A DNA stretch of 64,000 bases, from contig NZ_CP020772.1 in the NCBI RefSeq assembly GCF_002097535.1, forward strand, positions 4,078,698 to 4,142,697, in the 5' to 3' direction. The DNA comes from Halobacillus mangrovi (GTDB lineage Bacteria > Bacillota > Bacilli > Bacillales > Halobacillaceae). This document shows positions 23,294 through 32,684 of this stretch, in pieces (position 1 is the first letter of the stretch; the number at the start of each line of letters is the position of its first letter). Position numbers and translations under genes: made by a program. Below the pieces are notes generated by a model. It saw nothing but the letters and a program-made list of their open reading frames with translations, was not told the origin of the DNA and ran no database searches.

Positions 23294-23730
23294 TAAACCA
23301 AACACCTTTTTATCTATAAGTTTCTTTCTGTCATTTTACAAGATTAACTATAGACACTCAATTATTCTGAAGATTCTAGCTTCAAACTTAATTTACATAC
23401 ATATTTTACCTTTAAAAACCGCATATAGACATGCGCCCATTTTAGTCTAACCGACATAAAGTGTCCGTATTTTTACTTAGTTCAAATAGATTATGTATGA
23501 ACCAAATCATACTTTATATTTATTTTTTTCTATATGTAATTTTTTTGTAAATACAATTATCCCAGTGTTTATGACACTATATCTAATCCGTTATTACCAT
23601 AAATTTGTTCCTGTGTTACTCATTGCCAACCCTTCCTATCGTCCTATACAATTAATTTATGCATACGTGTTAAATACATCTACATTAATAATACGTATAG
23701 CATACAAATTATTAAGGAGAGGTGATTGAT
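23294..23730. other. Intergenic promoter region of the GH31 gene
   Basis: About 440 bp, strongly AT-rich. No convincing gene: the open frame 23493-23729 has no ribosome site. A weak inverted pair GTTCA/TGAAC lies at about 23480-23503. I see no catabolite-response element and no copy of the ROK palindrome at 32713. Confidence 0.5.
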
Positions 23731-26343
23731 TTGGAGAAAAACCACAGGACGAAGAAGATCAGCAAAGGTTTAGCCACGATGACTGTAGCGACAACTCTGT
23801 TACTGCCGTCTGTCATCCCGGAATCTAGTGTATTGGCTGTAGCTGATACCTATCCGGAAAAAGAACTGGACAAAGCAGCTGCTATGCAGCAAAAGCTAAT
23901 GGTACAGTCTGTCGAAGCTGTTAATAACGGAGTGAAGCTTGTACTATCTGATAACTACAAAGCTCACATTAAGTTAAAAACAGAAGATGTGGCGAAAATC
24001 TCGATTCTGAAGCAAGGAGAAGAAGAAAAACAAACGGCAGCCATTACGGAAACCAATTGGGATACTCCAAGCTTTGAAATGGAAGAAACTGAAGATACGA
24101 TTTCCATTTCTACCGATGAGATCACAGTGAAGATTAACAAGCAGCCTTTTGGAATTAAGTTTTTAGACAGTGAAGGAAATATCATCAACCAGGACAATAT
24201 GGATTATGGCGCTGGGTATGAAGACGGAAAGCCTTATGTATTTAAAGACACGACTAATGATGAAGCTTTTTATGGTTTCGGTGAACAGGCTGGTGATTTT
24301 AACCGCCGCGGTGACAGCATGGGTATGTGGAACAACGATGCTTATAATTACAACAAAGATACGAAATACCTTTACACCACGATACCATTTTTCATTGGGC
24401 TAAAAGATGAAAAAGCTTATGGTATCTTTTTTGATAACAGCAATCGTTCCTATTATGAAATGGCTAGTGAAAGTGACGATTACTATTACTTTTACGCAAA
24501 TGATGGACAATTGAGCTATTATTTTGCTTACGGACCTGATATTCAAGATGTACTGACGCGTTATAGTCAATTGACTGGGACGATGCAGCGGCCTCCAAAA
24601 TGGGCGATCGGACTACACCAAAGTAAGTGGGGTTACGAAACAGCTGATGAAATTAAAGGGATTGTAGAAAAATATCGTGAGAAAGATATTCCTCTTGATG
24701 GTGTTCACCTGGACATTGATCACATGGATGGTTACCGAAACTTCACATGGGGTGAAGACTTTACAGAAGATCCTGCTGCCTTTAATCAATGGCTGGAAGA
24801 TAAAGGTGTAAGTTCTGTGGCAGTAAGTGACCCAGGAATTAAAGTAGATGAAGGCTACTACATGTACGATGAAGGAACCGCCAATGACTATTGGGCTACT
24901 AATCCTGACGGCAGTCCTTATATTGGAGAAGTGTGGCCTGGAGATTCTGTCTTCCCTGACTTTGCAGAAGAAAATGTTCGTGACTGGTGGGCGGAAAGCC
25001 ACCGTACGATTTTTGATGCCGGAGTAGATGGGATATGGAATGATATGAACGAACCTGCAGTTTTTGATACCCCTACCAAGACTCAACCTCTTGATGTTAA
25101 ATACGGAGACATGTTGCACTCCGAATTTCACAACATGTTTGCTCATTATGAAGCAATGTCCTCTGACAAAGCCTTTGATATCTTAAAACCTAACAAGCGT
25201 CCATTTGTACTTACCAGAGACATGTACGCAGGCTCCCAACGTTACAGCACACTTTGGACAGGTGATAACGAAAGTTCATGGGAGTCCATGCGTTTAGCTA
25301 TCCCAATGAATAACAATGTCAGTTTATCCGGTGTACCATTTGTAGGTAATGACATTGGAGGATTCGCCAAGCGTCCAACTCCAGAACTATTTGCACGTTG
25401 GATCGAATTCGGCGTATTCATTCCTTTCTCTCGTATACATGCAGATAACGGAAGTACCGTAGCGTTTGATCCAGATGCAAAAGATATTCCCGGGCAAGAA
25501 CCATGGCAATATGGAGAAGAGGTTGAAGAAATCAGTAAGAAGTATATCGAACAGCGCTACAAGTTGATGCCTTACTTGTACAATGCCTTTATTGAGGCAA
25601 GTGAAAATGGCACTCCAGTTCAACAGCCGCTTGTTTACCAGTTCCAAGAGGATGAAAACACCTATGATATCAATCAACAATTCATGTTTGGCTCTTCTCT
25701 TCTTGTTGCTCCTGTGGTAGAAGAGGGAGCTACTTCCAGAGATGTTTATCTTCCAGAAGGTGAAACCTGGGTAGACTACTGGACTGGCGAAGAGCATGAA
25801 GGCGGTCAAACAATCAACAGAGAAGCTGACTTGAGTACGCTTCCGCTTTACGTCAAAAAAGGGGACATCATCCCTCACCGTAATGTCCAGAAACACACAG
25901 GTGAAAAACCATTAGAGAACTTGATCCTGGATACTTACTTGGAAGACAAGTCTTCTTACACGTTCATCGAAGACGATGGCGAGACAGAAGATTACAAGAA
26001 CGGCGAATTCAATGAAACGACTTTTAACCTAAAACGTAAAGGGAAGCATGTAGAATTCACGTCTAAGCAGAAAGTCTCTAATTATGACTCTTCCCTTGAA
26101 ACGTATACGCTAAAATTAAACAACGAAAACATGCCAAGAAAAGTCCAAGCAGCATCGACGAAGTATAAAGCAGTAGATTCTCCAGAAGAAGTGAAGCAAA
26201 ACGAAAACACTTACTATTATGATGAAGAAAACGAGACGACTTATGTGAATATTCCTGTGAATGAAACGAAGAAAGTAAAAATCTTCTTCCACAGTGATAA
26301 GAAAACAGAAAAAGCAAAAGGTAAAGCCGAGAATAATCATTAA
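23731..26343 (+). CDS. Secreted GH31 alpha-glucosidase
   Basis: 870 aa exported glycoside hydrolase. A signal peptide covers about residues 1-38 (basic KKISKGLATM, hydrophobic VATTLLLPSVI, cleavage near VLAVA). An N-terminal beta-sandwich (~60-275) precedes the GH31 barrel with nucleophile Asp438 in DGIWNDMNEP and acid/base Asp512 in TLWTGDNESSW; WIEFGVFIPFSRIHAD and the C-terminal beta domains follow. The WNDMNEP signature points to alpha-glucosidase. The mature protein is rich in Asp and Glu, as in halophile secreted enzymes. TTG at 23731 best fits the AAGGAGAGG site (GTG at 23722 is too close). It faces the GH27-GH31 gene across one terminator and probably finishes its products to glucose. 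Confidence 0.92.
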   Translation: MEKNHRTKKISKGLATMTVATTLLLPSVIPESSVLAVADTYPEKELDKAAAMQQKLMVQSVEAVNNGVKLVLSDNYKAHIKLKTEDVAKISILKQGEEEKQTAAITETNWDTPSFEMEETEDTISISTDEITVKINKQPFGIKFLDSEGNIINQDNMDYGAGYEDGKPYVFKDTTNDEAFYGFGEQAGDFNRRGDSMGMWNNDAYNYNKDTKYLYTTIPFFIGLKDEKAYGIFFDNSNRSYYEMASESDDYYYFYANDGQLSYYFAYGPDIQDVLTRYSQLTGTMQRPPKWAIGLHQSKWGYETADEIKGIVEKYREKDIPLDGVHLDIDHMDGYRNFTWGEDFTEDPAAFNQWLEDKGVSSVAVSDPGIKVDEGYYMYDEGTANDYWATNPDGSPYIGEVWPGDSVFPDFAEENVRDWWAESHRTIFDAGVDGIWNDMNEPAVFDTPTKTQPLDVKYGDMLHSEFHNMFAHYEAMSSDKAFDILKPNKRPFVLTRDMYAGSQRYSTLWTGDNESSWESMRLAIPMNNNVSLSGVPFVGNDIGGFAKRPTPELFARWIEFGVFIPFSRIHADNGSTVAFDPDAKDIPGQEPWQYGEEVEEISKKYIEQRYKLMPYLYNAFIEASENGTPVQQPLVYQFQEDENTYDINQQFMFGSSLLVAPVVEEGATSRDVYLPEGETWVDYWTGEEHEGGQTINREADLSTLPLYVKKGDIIPHRNVQKHTGEKPLENLILDTYLEDKSSYTFIEDDGETEDYKNGEFNETTFNLKRKGKHVEFTSKQKVSNYDSSLETYTLKLNNENMPRKVQAASTKYKAVDSPEEVKQNENTYYYDEENETTYVNIPVNETKKVKIFFHSDKKTEKAKGKAENNH

Positions 26344-26354
26344 ACACCAATGAA

Positions 26355-26386
26355 AAAGGTCCGCGGGTATATTCCGCGGACCCTTT
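26355..26386. terminator. Bidirectional terminator between the two GH31 genes
   Basis: Stem AAAGGTCCGCGG/CCGCGGACCCTTT, 7-base loop. Confidence 0.9.
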
Positions 26387-26389
26387 CTC

Positions 26390-29300
26390 TTATTTTGTTA
26401 CCTTATGTTTCACTCTGATTGTCAGTTCACCGTCAGACTTAGCTTTAGTTTTTATCTGAATCGTTTTTTGTTTTTCGTCATATAAGAAAGAATTGTTCTT
26501 AGCTATATTGACTTCTTTTACTGATTCTAGCTTCCTTCCGTTGACTTTAATCCATTTCGGAGCCTCCTCGAATGGCAATTCGACGGTGTAGGTTCGTTTT
26601 TCAACCATTCCTTCATAGGAGCCTTGCCTTTTTCCAATGGTCACCAGCGTCTCATCTTTCTGCTTCTCTGCTGTAATTTCCGTTGTCGCCAATGCCCCCT
26701 CTTCATACTTATAGGTAGACCCATCATCTTCATATAAGGTATACGTAGAAAGATCACCAGACTGATAAGGGTAAATTCTTAAGCTGATCTGTTTATTTGG
26801 CTTTTCCCCTACATACTGAATATCTTCTCCCAGAGGAATGATCGCTCCTTCTTTAACAAACACAGGTGTTTTTTCTAATGGTACGTCGTAGCTGATCGTT
26901 TGTCCCCCTCCATACACCGCTTTCCCATTCCATTCATACCAATTTCCATCTGGAAGGTAGACGTTACGCTCTCTACCTCCCTCTTTATGAACAGGAGCGA
27001 CAAGCAGCGAAGGGCCGAACATCCACTGATCTTTAAGATTGCTAACGTTCGGGTCTGTTTGATAATCAAAAACCAACGGCCTCATTATTGGCAGATTTTT
27101 TTCGGACGTATCTCTGACGGCCGAATAAATATAAGGAAGCAAACGATAACGCTGTCTGATCGCCTCGGTTACAATGGTTTCTGCTTCTTCTCCAAATGCC
27201 CAAGGTTCACGTTCTCCATCTGCTCCATGTGAACGGAAGATTGGCATATAAGCCGCTGATTGCATCCAACGTGTGTACAATTCAGAAGAAGGCACCCCTG
27301 AAAATCCTCCTGCATCGGTCGTAAAATAAGGCATACCTGACATAGATGCTGTAAGTCCAAGCTGCAAGTTGTGAGTCAGCGCCTCCCATGAAGCATTGAC
27401 ATCACCACTCCATAAGGTCGTCCCATATTCGCTGATTCCCGAGAATCCGGAGCGCGCAAGAGACCACACACGTTCATCAGTGTAAGATCTTTGTCCTTCA
27501 TAAAAGGCTTTAGATTCTACTAAAGCATAGACATTCCTAATTTCATCCGCTCTTCCTCCTTGAAAGTGATCACGGATAGGATCTGTTTGTTGTTCTGGTT
27601 CATTCAAATCGATCCACCATCCCTTCGTTCCGGCATCATGAAGAGTTTTGGCTTGTTGAGTGTACCATTTTGCTGCTTCTTCATTGGTAAAATCAACGAG
27701 ACCGCCACCTCCGTACCAGGCTGGGTATGTGATCGTTCGATTTGAAGTGTCCTGAACAAAGTAGCCTTTATCATCAGCCTCACTATAATTATTGGCAGTT
27801 GACTCAATGTAAGGATCTACAATAGGAGTGACTTTTACACCTTTATCAGCTAATTGCTTAAGGTGATCTTCAGGATTCGAAAAAGCACCCGACCAAGTAA
27901 AATCAAAATATTGATCCTCTTTCGCCCAGTAAACATCCAGAATCAGCCCATCCATAGGAATGGCTTTGTCTCTAAAGGTACTTGCAATTTGATTCACTTC
28001 CTCCCAGCTTTTATATCCGAATCTCGATTGAATATAGCCGAGCGACCATTGTGGAGGTAAAGGAGGCTCTCCTGTCAGCTCTCCAAAGGAGTCCATCACT
28101 TGAGGAAAATCTGGTCCAGCCATGAAATAGTAGACCATTTCTCCGTTTGGAGCATAGAAGGAATAGGCTGACTTATTATCTTTTCCTAGATCAAATTGAG
28201 CGTTCTGATGGGTATTATCAAAATACACTCCATAACCGTTTGTGGAGGTCAAAAAAGTTCCTGAAATATCAGAGGTATTTCCTCCAAGACCATCAACCAT
28301 GGAATTATTCATCGTAATTGTTGTCCCTCGCTTATCGAGCTCTTTAGTGTGACGATCCATTCCCAGTCCATAAAGGTGCTCATCAGCATTTAATTCAAAA
28401 ATTTGATATACGCCTTTATACTGATCATACCCAAGACCTCCATCTGTTTGATCTTGGGTGAGTAAGGTTTTATTATGACGGTCATAGTAGGCAAGACGGA
28501 AAGGGTTCTTATAAGCCCTTACCGTCAGTTCTTCTGTGGAAATTTTATAATAATTTTTTTCATCGGTAATACGATACAGAGCCTTTGCTTTTTCATTATC
28601 CACTACATAAGACTTTTTCTTAGAAAATGTTCCTGTCGGCTCCATCCAAACACGGGCGATTCCGTCCTTTAAAAAAGACAATCTTACGGCTGACTGGTCT
28701 TCCATATGGAAGGTGATTTCACTATCCTTTTCTAAATAAGGGCTTGAAGTATCCAGTGAGGGTAGAGTAGTAACCTGCGGCTGCTGTAGATCTGCTTTAA
28801 CTATTTCAAGCTTTTCAATATCAAGAAGGCTTCCGTTCTCTCCTTCCAGAGAGGCGCCGACTTTAACCACTTCATTCGCCTCAACTGAGATAAGGGTCGT
28901 TCCCACAGAATCCCAGTTGCTAGTTGATATCTCCTCAGACTCCTTTCCACCACCGTAAGACACATAGATTTCTGCTTGCTTTGCTGTTTCGCTTTTTCTT
29001 GCCTTCGCTCTTACCGTATAGTCTCCTTCAGGAAGTGTGACGTACTGCCACACTTCAGATTTACCGGCTAACCGAGCAAATGATGACCCATTTTCAGCTT
29101 CCATAGAAGTACGATTCAATGCAGAGGATGTCCAACCTTCTACTCCTATTTCAAAACCTGAATTGGAAAGATATTTTATCGAGGTCTCATCTCCAACTTT
29201 CTCTATCTTCACATCATCGATTTGAAAAGAAGTATTTTCAGGTGCTACCGTGTAGAATCCTATATCCAGTTGACCGCTCGTGACCTCAAAAGTCTGAGTG

Positions 29301-31444
29301 ATTTCTTTCCACTGAAACTCAGGTTGTTCTGGTTTTATATCTACATTAATTTGGTCACTGCCATGCTCAGATACTTCCATTCGTGCGATGTTGCCAGCAC
29401 TTTCGAATGTCGGGTCATTATAAGGCTGCAATTTCACCCAGGCACTTACTTTATATTCTCCATTTTCAATCCCTTTCAGCTTCTGATGGATACTGGCCTG
29501 GTAAGGTTCCGACTTATAAAAATAATGCTTCGATCCCTCATGAGCGTCTTCCGTGTTTACCCCCGTCCAGGCATTGTCAGGGTTCCAAACATCCCAGCCA
29601 GTATGGTCTCCCATTTCAAAATCTCCGTTAGTCAGGATTACTTCTGGATGGAGGAGCTCGATATAATCCAGGTGCAGTTCTCCCTCATCCCCTGCACTAT
29701 TCTTCACAGTAACCAGGTTTTCTCCTTCTTCCAATTGGAAAGTGGCCTGTTTGCCTTTCCAAGTATCCCAGTCATTTGTCGATTCGAACGTTACTGACTG
29801 GTTTTGTTCATTGACCACTAACGTTTTTGTAGAAGGATTATCTGATCCATTGGCATAACGAAAGTTCAAGGTGTAATCACCAGCGGTTGGAACAGAAATA
29901 GCCACGGTTACAGAAGCATCGGGTTGGTCCATGTTTTCAATATAACCAAAACTATTAAAACCTTGTTGCTCGTTATTGAAATAAGCACCCTGTTGATAGG
30001 AAGCTACTTCAGTTTCATATTTTTTATTCGCAGATCGAGGTACGACCTTGACCATGCTTGTATCGTGTGGAGTTAAAGAGGCTTTGTGATTGTAACGATA
30101 TCCAATATCTTCATGAGCCCACAAGTCTCTCACATACGCTTCTGTCTCGAGACCCAATTCCTTAGAAAAATCTACGGAAAGTTCTTTTCTTACATCCGAT
30201 CGGTTAAACAAGCCGACCACCCATGCCCCATCGGGTAACTGCCCAAGCCAGCGTTCACTATCACGACTACTAAACTTGTAATGATCGTTATTATAAAAAA
30301 TCGGCTTCCCTGCTAATCCTTGCTGATTCAGTTCAATAAGCTCTGAGTTTTGATAGAAATGCGCATCTTCTCCAATGGTGTCGAACTGATCGGCAATCGC
30401 AATCGGGGAACCTGCCATTGTGAAGAGGGAGACAGCCGTTTTCTTTTCTTCCTCTTCAAACTCTCCTGTGAATGTATTCATACGCAGAAAATCTCCATCG
30501 AGAATCATAGAGTTACGTCCGGACACATCGGCAAATCCGGTGAAGCCTTGGAATGGGTTCGCCCATTGCGACCATGTATCCGTCCACTCCTGACGTCTCC
30601 CACTGATGTGATCCCATCCTCCATGGAAAACATCTTCATCAATACGAATCATATCTCCGTACTTGAGTTCCAGTTCCGCATGGTTTTTCAAGTGGGGCAT
30701 AACTAAACTTAATGTCATGTCATCTCCTGCCGCTTCTTCCATCCATCTAAGGGCGGTTTCATAGTTTTCACGCCCATGAGCAATTCCTACATCTCCTATA
30801 CTTTTATCTGTCCCCGTTTCATACCAGGAAAGAAAATCGACTCGCAAGAATTTGGCGCCTTGCTCTTTAAAATAATTTACATAGCCCTGCACAAATTCTT
30901 TCGCCCCATCTTTTGTAACGTCCACCCAGTATAACGAGGTGTCTTGCCCCCCGTTAAAACGGTCCCCTTCCGTGACAATGTCTTTAATCATAATATCCGG
31001 TCTCCCGATGACCGTCGCATTTTCATTATTCACAGCTGCCGGCGTCACCCATAAAGGATTATAATAGATTCCCAGATTCATTCCTTTGCTCTCGATATAG
31101 TCCGCCCAATATTTCCAGTCATGTTCCCAAGAATCGTTGTGAGAGATGATGTACCCATTTTCCGTATGTTTGGTTGAGCCTTCGATCCATCCATCTGTAC
31201 TCATCATGTCATACCCGTAGGGTTGAAAGTTCTCGGCCATCCAATCAATATTCTGCTTCCATCGATTCTCGGGTAAATAAGTATTATTGGTAAATTGATG
31301 TTCGTAAGAAATCCAATAAAGAGGGCCCGATCCTTTCGCCGTCCCAGGGCTTTCCCGTGCTTCCACATGAGTGATCCCAAAAATCAAAATGAAAAATAAA
31401 GACCAAACACACAATGAATTCCTCAGGCTTCTTGAGTGCATCAC
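26390..31444 (-). CDS. Secreted GH27 (isomalto-dextranase-like)-CBM-GH31 fusion enzyme
   Basis: 1684 aa exported multidomain hydrolase. Signal peptide 1-29. GH27 barrel and sandwich about 38-470, resembling Arthrobacter isomalto-dextranase (PENRWKQNIDWMAENF, MSTDGWIEGST, LGIYYNPLWV); candidate nucleophile Asp203 (FLRVDFLSW) and acid/base Asp271 (R-x3-D). CBM35-like module ~475-598. Two CBM_4_9-like sandwiches ~602-748 (NGDFEMGDHTGW) and ~755-885 (NSGFEIGVEGW). GH31 unit ~890-1684 with nucleophile Asp1279 (GWWIDLNEPE) and acid/base Asp1348 (LWSGDVNASW). Both catalytic sets look intact. Likely action: release of isomaltose from dextran and splitting or transfer of alpha-1,6-glucosides in one secreted protein. 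It follows the ROK gene by 25 bp, in one operon. Confidence 0.9.
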   Translation of the reverse strand: MMHSRSLRNSLCVWSLFFILIFGITHVEARESPGTAKGSGPLYWISYEHQFTNNTYLPENRWKQNIDWMAENFQPYGYDMMSTDGWIEGSTKHTENGYIISHNDSWEHDWKYWADYIESKGMNLGIYYNPLWVTPAAVNNENATVIGRPDIMIKDIVTEGDRFNGGQDTSLYWVDVTKDGAKEFVQGYVNYFKEQGAKFLRVDFLSWYETGTDKSIGDVGIAHGRENYETALRWMEEAAGDDMTLSLVMPHLKNHAELELKYGDMIRIDEDVFHGGWDHISGRRQEWTDTWSQWANPFQGFTGFADVSGRNSMILDGDFLRMNTFTGEFEEEEKKTAVSLFTMAGSPIAIADQFDTIGEDAHFYQNSELIELNQQGLAGKPIFYNNDHYKFSSRDSERWLGQLPDGAWVVGLFNRSDVRKELSVDFSKELGLETEAYVRDLWAHEDIGYRYNHKASLTPHDTSMVKVVPRSANKKYETEVASYQQGAYFNNEQQGFNSFGYIENMDQPDASVTVAISVPTAGDYTLNFRYANGSDNPSTKTLVVNEQNQSVTFESTNDWDTWKGKQATFQLEEGENLVTVKNSAGDEGELHLDYIELLHPEVILTNGDFEMGDHTGWDVWNPDNAWTGVNTEDAHEGSKHYFYKSEPYQASIHQKLKGIENGEYKVSAWVKLQPYNDPTFESAGNIARMEVSEHGSDQINVDIKPEQPEFQWKEITQTFEVTSGQLDIGFYTVAPENTSFQIDDVKIEKVGDETSIKYLSNSGFEIGVEGWTSSALNRTSMEAENGSSFARLAGKSEVWQYVTLPEGDYTVRAKARKSETAKQAEIYVSYGGGKESEEISTSNWDSVGTTLISVEANEVVKVGASLEGENGSLLDIEKLEIVKADLQQPQVTTLPSLDTSSPYLEKDSEITFHMEDQSAVRLSFLKDGIARVWMEPTGTFSKKKSYVVDNEKAKALYRITDEKNYYKISTEELTVRAYKNPFRLAYYDRHNKTLLTQDQTDGGLGYDQYKGVYQIFELNADEHLYGLGMDRHTKELDKRGTTITMNNSMVDGLGGNTSDISGTFLTSTNGYGVYFDNTHQNAQFDLGKDNKSAYSFYAPNGEMVYYFMAGPDFPQVMDSFGELTGEPPLPPQWSLGYIQSRFGYKSWEEVNQIASTFRDKAIPMDGLILDVYWAKEDQYFDFTWSGAFSNPEDHLKQLADKGVKVTPIVDPYIESTANNYSEADDKGYFVQDTSNRTITYPAWYGGGGLVDFTNEEAAKWYTQQAKTLHDAGTKGWWIDLNEPEQQTDPIRDHFQGGRADEIRNVYALVESKAFYEGQRSYTDERVWSLARSGFSGISEYGTTLWSGDVNASWEALTHNLQLGLTASMSGMPYFTTDAGGFSGVPSSELYTRWMQSAAYMPIFRSHGADGEREPWAFGEEAETIVTEAIRQRYRLLPYIYSAVRDTSEKNLPIMRPLVFDYQTDPNVSNLKDQWMFGPSLLVAPVHKEGGRERNVYLPDGNWYEWNGKAVYGGGQTISYDVPLEKTPVFVKEGAIIPLGEDIQYVGEKPNKQISLRIYPYQSGDLSTYTLYEDDGSTYKYEEGALATTEITAEKQKDETLVTIGKRQGSYEGMVEKRTYTVELPFEEAPKWIKVNGRKLESVKEVNIAKNNSFLYDEKQKTIQIKTKAKSDGELTIRVKHKVTK

Positions 31445-31469: not shown

Positions 31470-32684
31470 TTATGAGAGAAGTAAACGACTTTCCTCATTG
31501 ATGGGGTGCTCGAACCAATGATCAATCGCTTGTAAAGCTGCTCCTTGCACCCAAGCGTCATCTCCTAACTTGGAGACTTGGAATGTGACTTCACATCCAG
31601 CTTTTGAAAAGAAGTTATCCGATGCTACGTCAAGGGTGTAAGTCATAAAGAAATCCTCTGCGACTAAACCTTCGCCAATGAATATGACAGCAGAAGGGTT
31701 AAATACGTTGATACAGTTTAAAACCCCGATCCCGAGGTTCTCCCCCAGCTTCCTTAAAAGATGTTTAGCTAGTGGATCTCCTGAACGTGCAGCTGAAGTC
31801 ACTTGTTTAAAACCTAAATTCGCTTCACGGAGGGAGCTTTCTGGATAAAGGTGTTTGATTTGCCTACCTTCCGATTCTAGAAATCGTTCAGAAGCGTGCA
31901 TTTCAAGACAACCTTTCTGGCCGCAATGACAGCGGTATCCACCCTGCTTGATCACCATATGGCCAACTTCACCAGCCCCGCCATGATGACCAGCATATAC
32001 GTTCCCATTCAAAAAAAGAGAGGCCCCTACACCCGCTCCTATCGAAATGCACAAAAAATCATCTAATTCTTTTCCATAACCAAATTTGTGCTCAGCTTTT
32101 GTGTAAGCGTTTACATTATTGTCGATAAAAATAGGCACGTTGAACGCTTCCCACATTTTTTTGCGAACTTCTACTTGTTCCCAGCCAAGTAAGGTCGATC
32201 GAATAACTTTTCCTTGTTTGTTATTAATTAACCCTGATGCAGCAATCCCTATGCCAATCATTTTACTTGCAGGAATTTTTGTTTCTTGAATGATTCGATG
32301 AATAAGATGCACGATGGTATGTAGCAAGGTTTCTGGTGGGGTGGTCCTTTTAAAAGGAAGCGTGTGTTTACAAAGAATATGTGCATTAAGATTTGTACTA
32401 GCCACAATGACTTGGGATTCCTCAATTTTTACCCCAAAAGCATATCCATAGTCTTCGTTGAAGGATAGTAAAGTCGCTTTCCTTCCCCCTGTTGAATTCG
32501 CTGTTCCTTTTTCGAAAACCAAACCGGCTGATAGCAGATCCTCTGTAATATAAGTCACCGTAGATAAACCTAAATTCAGTGCTTTGGATATCTCAGTTCG
32601 ACTAATCGGTTGGTGGGTACGAATGGTAGAAACCACGTGAGAACGATTCAATTCTTTTATCAGTGCTTTATTTCCTACTCGCAT
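31470..32684 (-). CDS. ROK family transcriptional repressor (XylR/NagC-like)
   Basis: 404 aa regulator. N-terminal winged helix (ISRTEISKALNLGLSTVTYITEDLLSAG), then a sugar-kinase-like ROK domain with GIGIAASGLIN, the sugar-binding IDNNVNAYTKAE and GAGVGASL, and the zinc site His242, Cys252, Cys254 and Cys259 (CHCGQKGC). ROK repressors bind a mono- or disaccharide and leave their operator. AAGGAGG precedes the ATG. As the first gene of the operon with the GH27-GH31 enzyme it most likely controls it and itself in response to glucose, isomaltose or a related sugar. Confidence 0.93.
   Translation of the reverse strand: MRVGNKALIKELNRSHVVSTIRTHQPISRTEISKALNLGLSTVTYITEDLLSAGLVFEKGTANSTGGRKATLLSFNEDYGYAFGVKIEESQVIVASTNLNAHILCKHTLPFKRTTPPETLLHTIVHLIHRIIQETKIPASKMIGIGIAASGLINNKQGKVIRSTLLGWEQVEVRKKMWEAFNVPIFIDNNVNAYTKAEHKFGYGKELDDFLCISIGAGVGASLFLNGNVYAGHHGGAGEVGHMVIKQGGYRCHCGQKGCLEMHASERFLESEGRQIKHLYPESSLREANLGFKQVTSAARSGDPLAKHLLRKLGENLGIGVLNCINVFNPSAVIFIGEGLVAEDFFMTYTLDVASDNFFSKAGCEVTFQVSKLGDDAWVQGAALQAIDHWFEHPINEESRLLLS

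Follow-up and report, generated by a model that had tools for sequence, protein, structure and literature searches.

Several described enzymes resemble parts of the protein considered here, a 1684-residue polypeptide encoded at 26390..31444 on the minus strand of a 64,000-nucleotide stretch of the Halobacillus mangrovi genome (the window), in which a unit of glycoside hydrolase family 27 (GH27) is followed by carbohydrate-binding modules (CBMs) and a GH31 unit. The isomalto-dextranase of Arthrobacter globiformis T6 (GH27; PDB 5awo) shares the barrel, C-terminal sandwich and CBM35 over fusion residues 28–597, at 49% identity to the fusion GH27 in the structural alignment, but its solved chain (610 amino acids) stops after the CBM35 and contains neither further CBMs nor a GH31 unit. 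The dextranase FjDex31A of Flavobacterium johnsoniae (6jr6) shares the GH31 fold at 32–33% identity to the fused unit and works in a locus with GH66; it differs in lying on another GH31 branch, in its acid/base loop and in being unfused. The 6-alpha-glucosyltransferase (6GT) Ps6GT31A of Paenibacillus sp. 598K (5x7o) joins GH31 to CBM35s of the fusion's kind, but has a WWNDETD nucleophile loop, a long separate branch and a solved chain without GH27. As for other chains holding two enzymes, PMC13084667 and PMC12446779 describe in Thermoanaerobacter thermocopriae a cycloisomaltooligosaccharide glucanotransferase (CITase) with a transglucosylase domain, likewise two alpha-1,6-glucan enzymes in one chain, although the pair there is GH66 with a dextran-dextrinase/GH15-like domain rather than GH27 with GH31. 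A Cellvibrio protein from a metagenome-assembled genome (P0068, 1678 amino acids) has the same GH27 type joined to another dextran enzyme, but this partner is a GH49 dextranase with ricin-type lectin domains. No description of a GH27–GH31 fusion was found in the titles and abstract openings of the open-access literature, in agreement with the preliminary description of this DNA, which knew of none; the domain families are known and their combination is new.

The fusion is read here as a secreted two-enzyme polypeptide for alpha-1,6-glucan use, with the GH27 unit clipping isomaltose and the GH31 unit acting as an exo-enzyme on the same ends, and the chance that this reading is right is put at about even. 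An endo-acting GH66 enzyme encoded elsewhere in the genome would open long chains, the CBMs would hold the glucan chain, and the GH27 unit would cut at non-reducing ends. The GH31 unit, using the retaining double-displacement mechanism expected of its family, would remove from the same ends or products the single glucosyl units on which GH27 is unable to act, candidate targets being branch stubs, odd residues and perhaps isomaltose itself. Isomaltose and glucose would be taken up, and a GH13 enzyme would split isomaltose intracellularly.

The open frame begins at a GTG, with ATG as the next codon, and is preceded by AGGAGG, a good ribosome-binding site. Across 26390–31444 the plus strand is rich in stops and the frame is open only on the minus strand, a detail that the preliminary description had left unsaid while giving the 1684 codons and coordinates correctly. 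The signal peptide claimed there has its counterpart in a signal-peptide-like N-terminus (residues 1–29; 31358..31444; minus strand, as are all parts of the fusion below), which, judged by eye, comprises a hydrophobic run followed by HVEA/RES.

As judged from sequence and fold comparison, the N-terminal unit is a GH27 of isomalto-dextranase type, as had been proposed. The three motifs on which that proposal was based align with 5awo (PENEWKVNIDWL, TDGWIEGSS and GVYYNPLWV), and over the barrel (about residues 30–390; 30275..31357), C-terminal domain and CBM35 this entry outscores the other GH27 entries listed, both by sequence and by fold. Asp203 (codon 30836..30838) and Asp271 (30632..30634) each align with an Asp of 5awo and are invariant in 25 of 25 fusions; we take them, from what is known of GH27, to be the putative nucleophile and acid/base, respectively. 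An insertion of more than 100 residues after about residue 110 of the barrel is present in 22 of the 26 rows that fusions occupy in the GH27 tree (25 proteins plus one genome copy), the listed carriers being P0004–P0025 except P0023, and in 17 unfused rows (P0027–P0040 among the unfused). In P0004 it is a CBM4_9 according to Pfam. The window's fusion and its two nearest kin are free of it; the fourth insert-free row, P0023, starts late, and its genome copy L010_2082 carries the insertion. Such an insertion in a GH27 barrel parallels the CBM35 inside the GH66 unit of 3wnk-type CITases.

Between the two catalytic units, part of the series of three beta-sandwich modules previously described is firmly placed. 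The Melibiase_C sandwich (residues 395–467; 30044..30262; PF17801, 58.1 bits) and the CBM35 (residues 475–596; 29657..30022; PF16990, 30.1 bits against a cut-off of 28) both exceed their Pfam cut-offs, while a CBM_6 match at residues 483–596 falls under its own. The CBM35 resembles those of Ps6GT31A and of CITases (3wnl). Residues 603–890 gave no Pfam match of their own, and most of the model in that region has low to moderate confidence, so that the sandwiches in this part are placed from relatives and the model only. A probable CBM4_9-like sandwich (about residues 603–750; 29195..29638) is suggested by PF02018 in relatives, such as the CBM_4_9 at residues 51–160 of P0094, and by a low-confidence model, and a putative third sandwich (about residues 755–885; 28790..29182) by the beta-strand pattern of the model. 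A stretch like this third sandwich precedes GH31 in the unfused relatives P0093 and P0094.

The GH31 unit is complete and has its own catalytic pair, as the preliminary description had it. Four Pfam modules, each above cut-off, lie within residues 920–1623: an N-terminal mutarotase-like domain (residues 919–1080; 28205..28690; PF13802, 77.7 bits, best stretch 920–1080), the barrel (residues 1127–1442; 27119..28066; PF01055, 320.2 bits; model pLDDT 93.7), and a C-terminal domain (1451–1536; PF21365) with DUF5110 (1553–1623; PF17137), together at 26576..27094. By alignment, Asp1279 (27608..27610; WWIDLNE) occupies the nucleophile position of the family and Asp1348 (27401..27403; WSGD) the acid/base position, and both, like Asp203, are invariant among the 25 fusions compared.

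Phylogenetically, a single clade with support of 100 unites the GH31 units of the fusions (and P0093–P0095, in trees that have them) in each of the 113-, 57- and 44-row trees. Closest to this clade stand, as its sister group, four CBM-bearing GH31 proteins (P0101, P0228, P0244 and P0246), with support of 96, 97 and 94 in the 42-, 44- and 113-row trees, respectively; in the 57-row tree this group and Ps6GT31A are not separated as nearest to the fusion clade. To our knowledge, the four sister proteins are uncharacterised. The GH31 protein searches, which scored the best 7,994 and 7,986 candidates by shared words, found the clade almost only inside this fusion, and in the first of them the next protein beyond the fusion kin (P0096) is 38% identical to the fused GH31. 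Topology tests were run on groups that had been defined with earlier trees already in view. Grouping the fused GH31 with FjDex31A and its kin is rejected (approximately unbiased (AU) test, p 2.7e-4, at a cost of 37.8 log units), as is grouping it with the 4-alpha-glucosyltransferase Agd31B and its kin (AU p 4e-7, 93.6 log units). The earlier assignment to GH31 holds for the family; that the unit is a dextranase of the known kind is not supported.

Full-length copies of the fusion occur in two other genomes at 87% and 81% identity, and 22 further fusion proteins are 49–52% identical over 91–94%. Among 91 proteins matching at E 1e-30 or better, 24 (P0002–P0025) carry both PF17801 and PF01055; for the remaining 67 no PF01055 is listed, and one of these, P0026, ends within the GH31 N-terminal domain. 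Across the 25 fusions, the identities of the GH27 and GH31 units are correlated at r 0.964, a value reached by none of 5000 permutations; the two units diverge in parallel while joined, across several genera. The fusion is nevertheless rare, being found in 3 of 101 relatives (G000, G021 of the same genus, and G094), in 2 of the 397 genomes of an order sample (G000 and G094), and in the home genome only in the class and phylum samples (398 genomes each), where, for order, class and phylum, up to two best candidates per genome were scored and counts were read from match rows.

Unfused counterparts are also known. GH27 stands alone in several lineages (G086 and the 17 insertion-bearing rows), the GH27 tree interleaves fused and unfused rows, and the unfused GH31 proteins P0094 (of Paenibacillus) and P0093 are nested within the fusion clade, so that splits or repeated joins have happened. 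Additionally, many of the separate GH27 (P0044–P0056) and GH31 (P0228, P0244–P0253) proteins share CBM_35_2, CBM13-like and CBM6 modules and may be unfused counterparts of the fusion. In G1121, a truncated remnant of a fusion GH31 (L066:7002-8291; 81% to P0023) lies beside an unfused GH27, apparently a fusion in decay. The GH27 matches of G535 (L060; one TAG and two TAA) and G513 (L061; one TAA) contain internal stops and are perhaps decaying copies too, like the truncated isomaltodextranase gene that PMC13084667 places upstream of a CITase-cluster binding-protein gene in Tepidibacillus decaturensis.

The surroundings of related genes point to alpha-1,6-glucan use, with GH66, sugar ABC-transporter, GH13 and ROK neighbours. 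GH66 is present in the fusion loci of G094 and of C. chromiireducens, next to or not far from unfused GH27 in G086, G038 and G1121, and as a partial match cut by the edge of the stretch at the GH27 locus of G535; the examined stretches of the GH27 loci G042, G1127, G024, G028, G513, L007 and L008 gave no GH66 match. Among the 101 relatives, 12 are GH66-positive at E below 1e-100, namely 5 of the 8 GH27-bearing genomes and 7 of the 93 others (Fisher p 4.6e-4, kinship ignored). In C. chromiireducens, G513 and G535 the GH27 gene adjoins ABC-transporter genes, and in the first and last of these a GH13 is nearby as well, an arrangement that fits isomaltose import. A small protein is kept beside GH66 in three loci (L029:14199-15068, L031:7434-8294 and L066:3751-4584), the last copy scoring 65.6 of the 80 bits required by a TapA amyloid-anchoring model, below cut-off, and a PrsA-like foldase gene is likewise kept in all three. 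In the home genome, a third GH31 (850 amino acids) is followed by the sole GH66 (L033:9350-13721, near 1.78 Mb). This GH66 matches 9sjg (577-residue chain, named a CITase by its depositors) at 474 bits and 8iu8 ('candidate dextranase') at 473, and, like the partner GH66 genes of related loci, has no internal CBM35 of the 3wnk-type CITases. The home pair resembles that of GH66 and GH31 in the Flavobacterium dextran locus (FjDexUL); according to PMC10316084, a GH66/GH31 locus of F. johnsoniae responds to a branched dextran but shows no response to soluble starch.

Several observations weigh against the two-hydrolase reading. Three of the eight GH27-bearing relatives have no GH66, three more GH27-free genomes count as GH66-positive when Pfam's cut-off replaces 1e-100, and the genomes in the Fisher test are not independent. 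The home GH66 lies about 2.3 Mb from the fusion rather than adjoining it, and since its top match is named a CITase, its role as an endodextranase is one that we infer. Moreover, where related loci encode sugar ABC importers, there would be no need for GH31 to hydrolyse isomaltose outside the cell. We know of no characterised enzyme in the fusion GH31 clade; for the fused unit, topology tests reject the grouping with FjDex31A and do not reject a relation to transferases, and in a scan with Ps6GT31A it was the only match besides two at 68%. A tentative alternative, held to be clearly the less probable, is one in which the fusion converts starch to isomaltose: GH31 would transfer glucose from maltodextrin to the 6-OH of non-reducing ends and GH27 would cut the isomaltosyl ends off, releasing a sugar usable by few competitors. 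Marginally more doubtful is its specific form, in which the GH31 half would be a branch near the 6-alpha-glucosyltransferases that installs alpha-1,6 linkages at the ends of maltodextrin, with GH27 harvesting isomaltose private to the producer. In the Ps6GT31A scan, which scored up to three best candidates per genome, 3 of 299 class genomes pass 1e-80, two at 68% and the fusion at 33% (4.1e-85), although this limit was chosen by the analyst and covers only matches above it, not those just below. Likewise, among 208 collected GH31 proteins, a set biased by having the fusion as the query for most of its members, the top five for Ps6GT31A are fusions (318–307 bits), followed by P0096 (304). Constraining the fused GH31 with Ps6GT31A is not rejected (p 0.41, or 0.33 once two further 6GTs are added), the CBM35 is of the Ps6GT31A type, and locus G1121 includes a secreted-looking GH13 closest to alpha-amylase. 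A 2026 paper, PMC13084667, also reports hydrolysis by isomaltodextranase of the alpha-1,6-glucans that 46GT makes, whereby maltodextrin yields isomaltose. Against conversion, WWNDETD occurs in 3 of 3 6GT sequences whereas the fusion has WWIDLNE, 6GT is not a supported sister of the fusion GH31s in any tree, P0096 and P0209 rather than the fusions are nearest to the 6GTs by path in the 44-row tree, and the partner GH66 genes are without the CITase-type CBM35. One of the 68% matches, in G541 (L085/L086), has as neighbours two further GH31-like genes, a pair of permease genes and a ROK protein, a set that we liken to a cycloalternan-type cluster.

The preliminary description had itself proposed a processive or channelled dextran-to-glucose machine, with GH31 as an endo- or exo-dextranase or isomaltase, which is considered improbable. 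FjDex31A is the best single PDB match of the fused GH31, by sequence and by Foldseek, and the related loci have an alpha-1,6-glucan setting; the grouping with FjDex31A is nonetheless rejected, the acid/base loop is without its insertion, and the second GH31 of the window, on a different branch from the fused unit, scores equally with FjDex31A (442 against 444 bits) and sits nearer to it in the trees. It is more improbable still that GH31 acts on another sugar, such as an alpha-xyloside, and that the fusion attacks a hetero-glycan. Constraint with alpha-xylosidases is not rejected (p 0.158) and the best NCBIfam match is a xylosidase model, but its score of 343.7 is far under the cut-off of 606, the neighbours are glucan-acting, and the LDVYW motif is like that of the glucose-acting Agd31B. 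An assembly join or chance frame has a negligible probability: nothing was found in its favour, the independent full-length copies already refute a join, and the home genome is a single contig of 4,142,697 bases, of which the window is the end, with no internal stop in the frame. The fusion that the preliminary description had wanted checked in this respect is real.

Turning to the neighbours, a ROK-family regulator (31470..32684, minus strand; PF00480) lies directly upstream of the fusion across a 25-bp gap and is a probable operon partner; it holds the same position in Halobacillus BBL2006 and in G094. Convergent with the fusion is the second GH31 (23722..26343, plus strand; 873 amino acids), of a MalA/GANAB-like branch, and Halobacillus BBL2006 (L004) keeps the pair of second GH31 and fusion together with ROK and an FAD oxidoreductase. 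Between the two genes, a strong hairpin (26353..26387, minus strand) of 14 pairs, 8 of them G-C, with a T-run may be the terminator of the fusion; it matches the consensus, with 6 terminator-like sites against 4.6 in shuffles.

The question at stake is whether two hydrolases have been joined to finish dextran, or a linkage-writer and a linkage-cutter to privatise starch. Under either reading, the protein would be a bifunctional enzyme of use in producing isomaltose or removing dextran.
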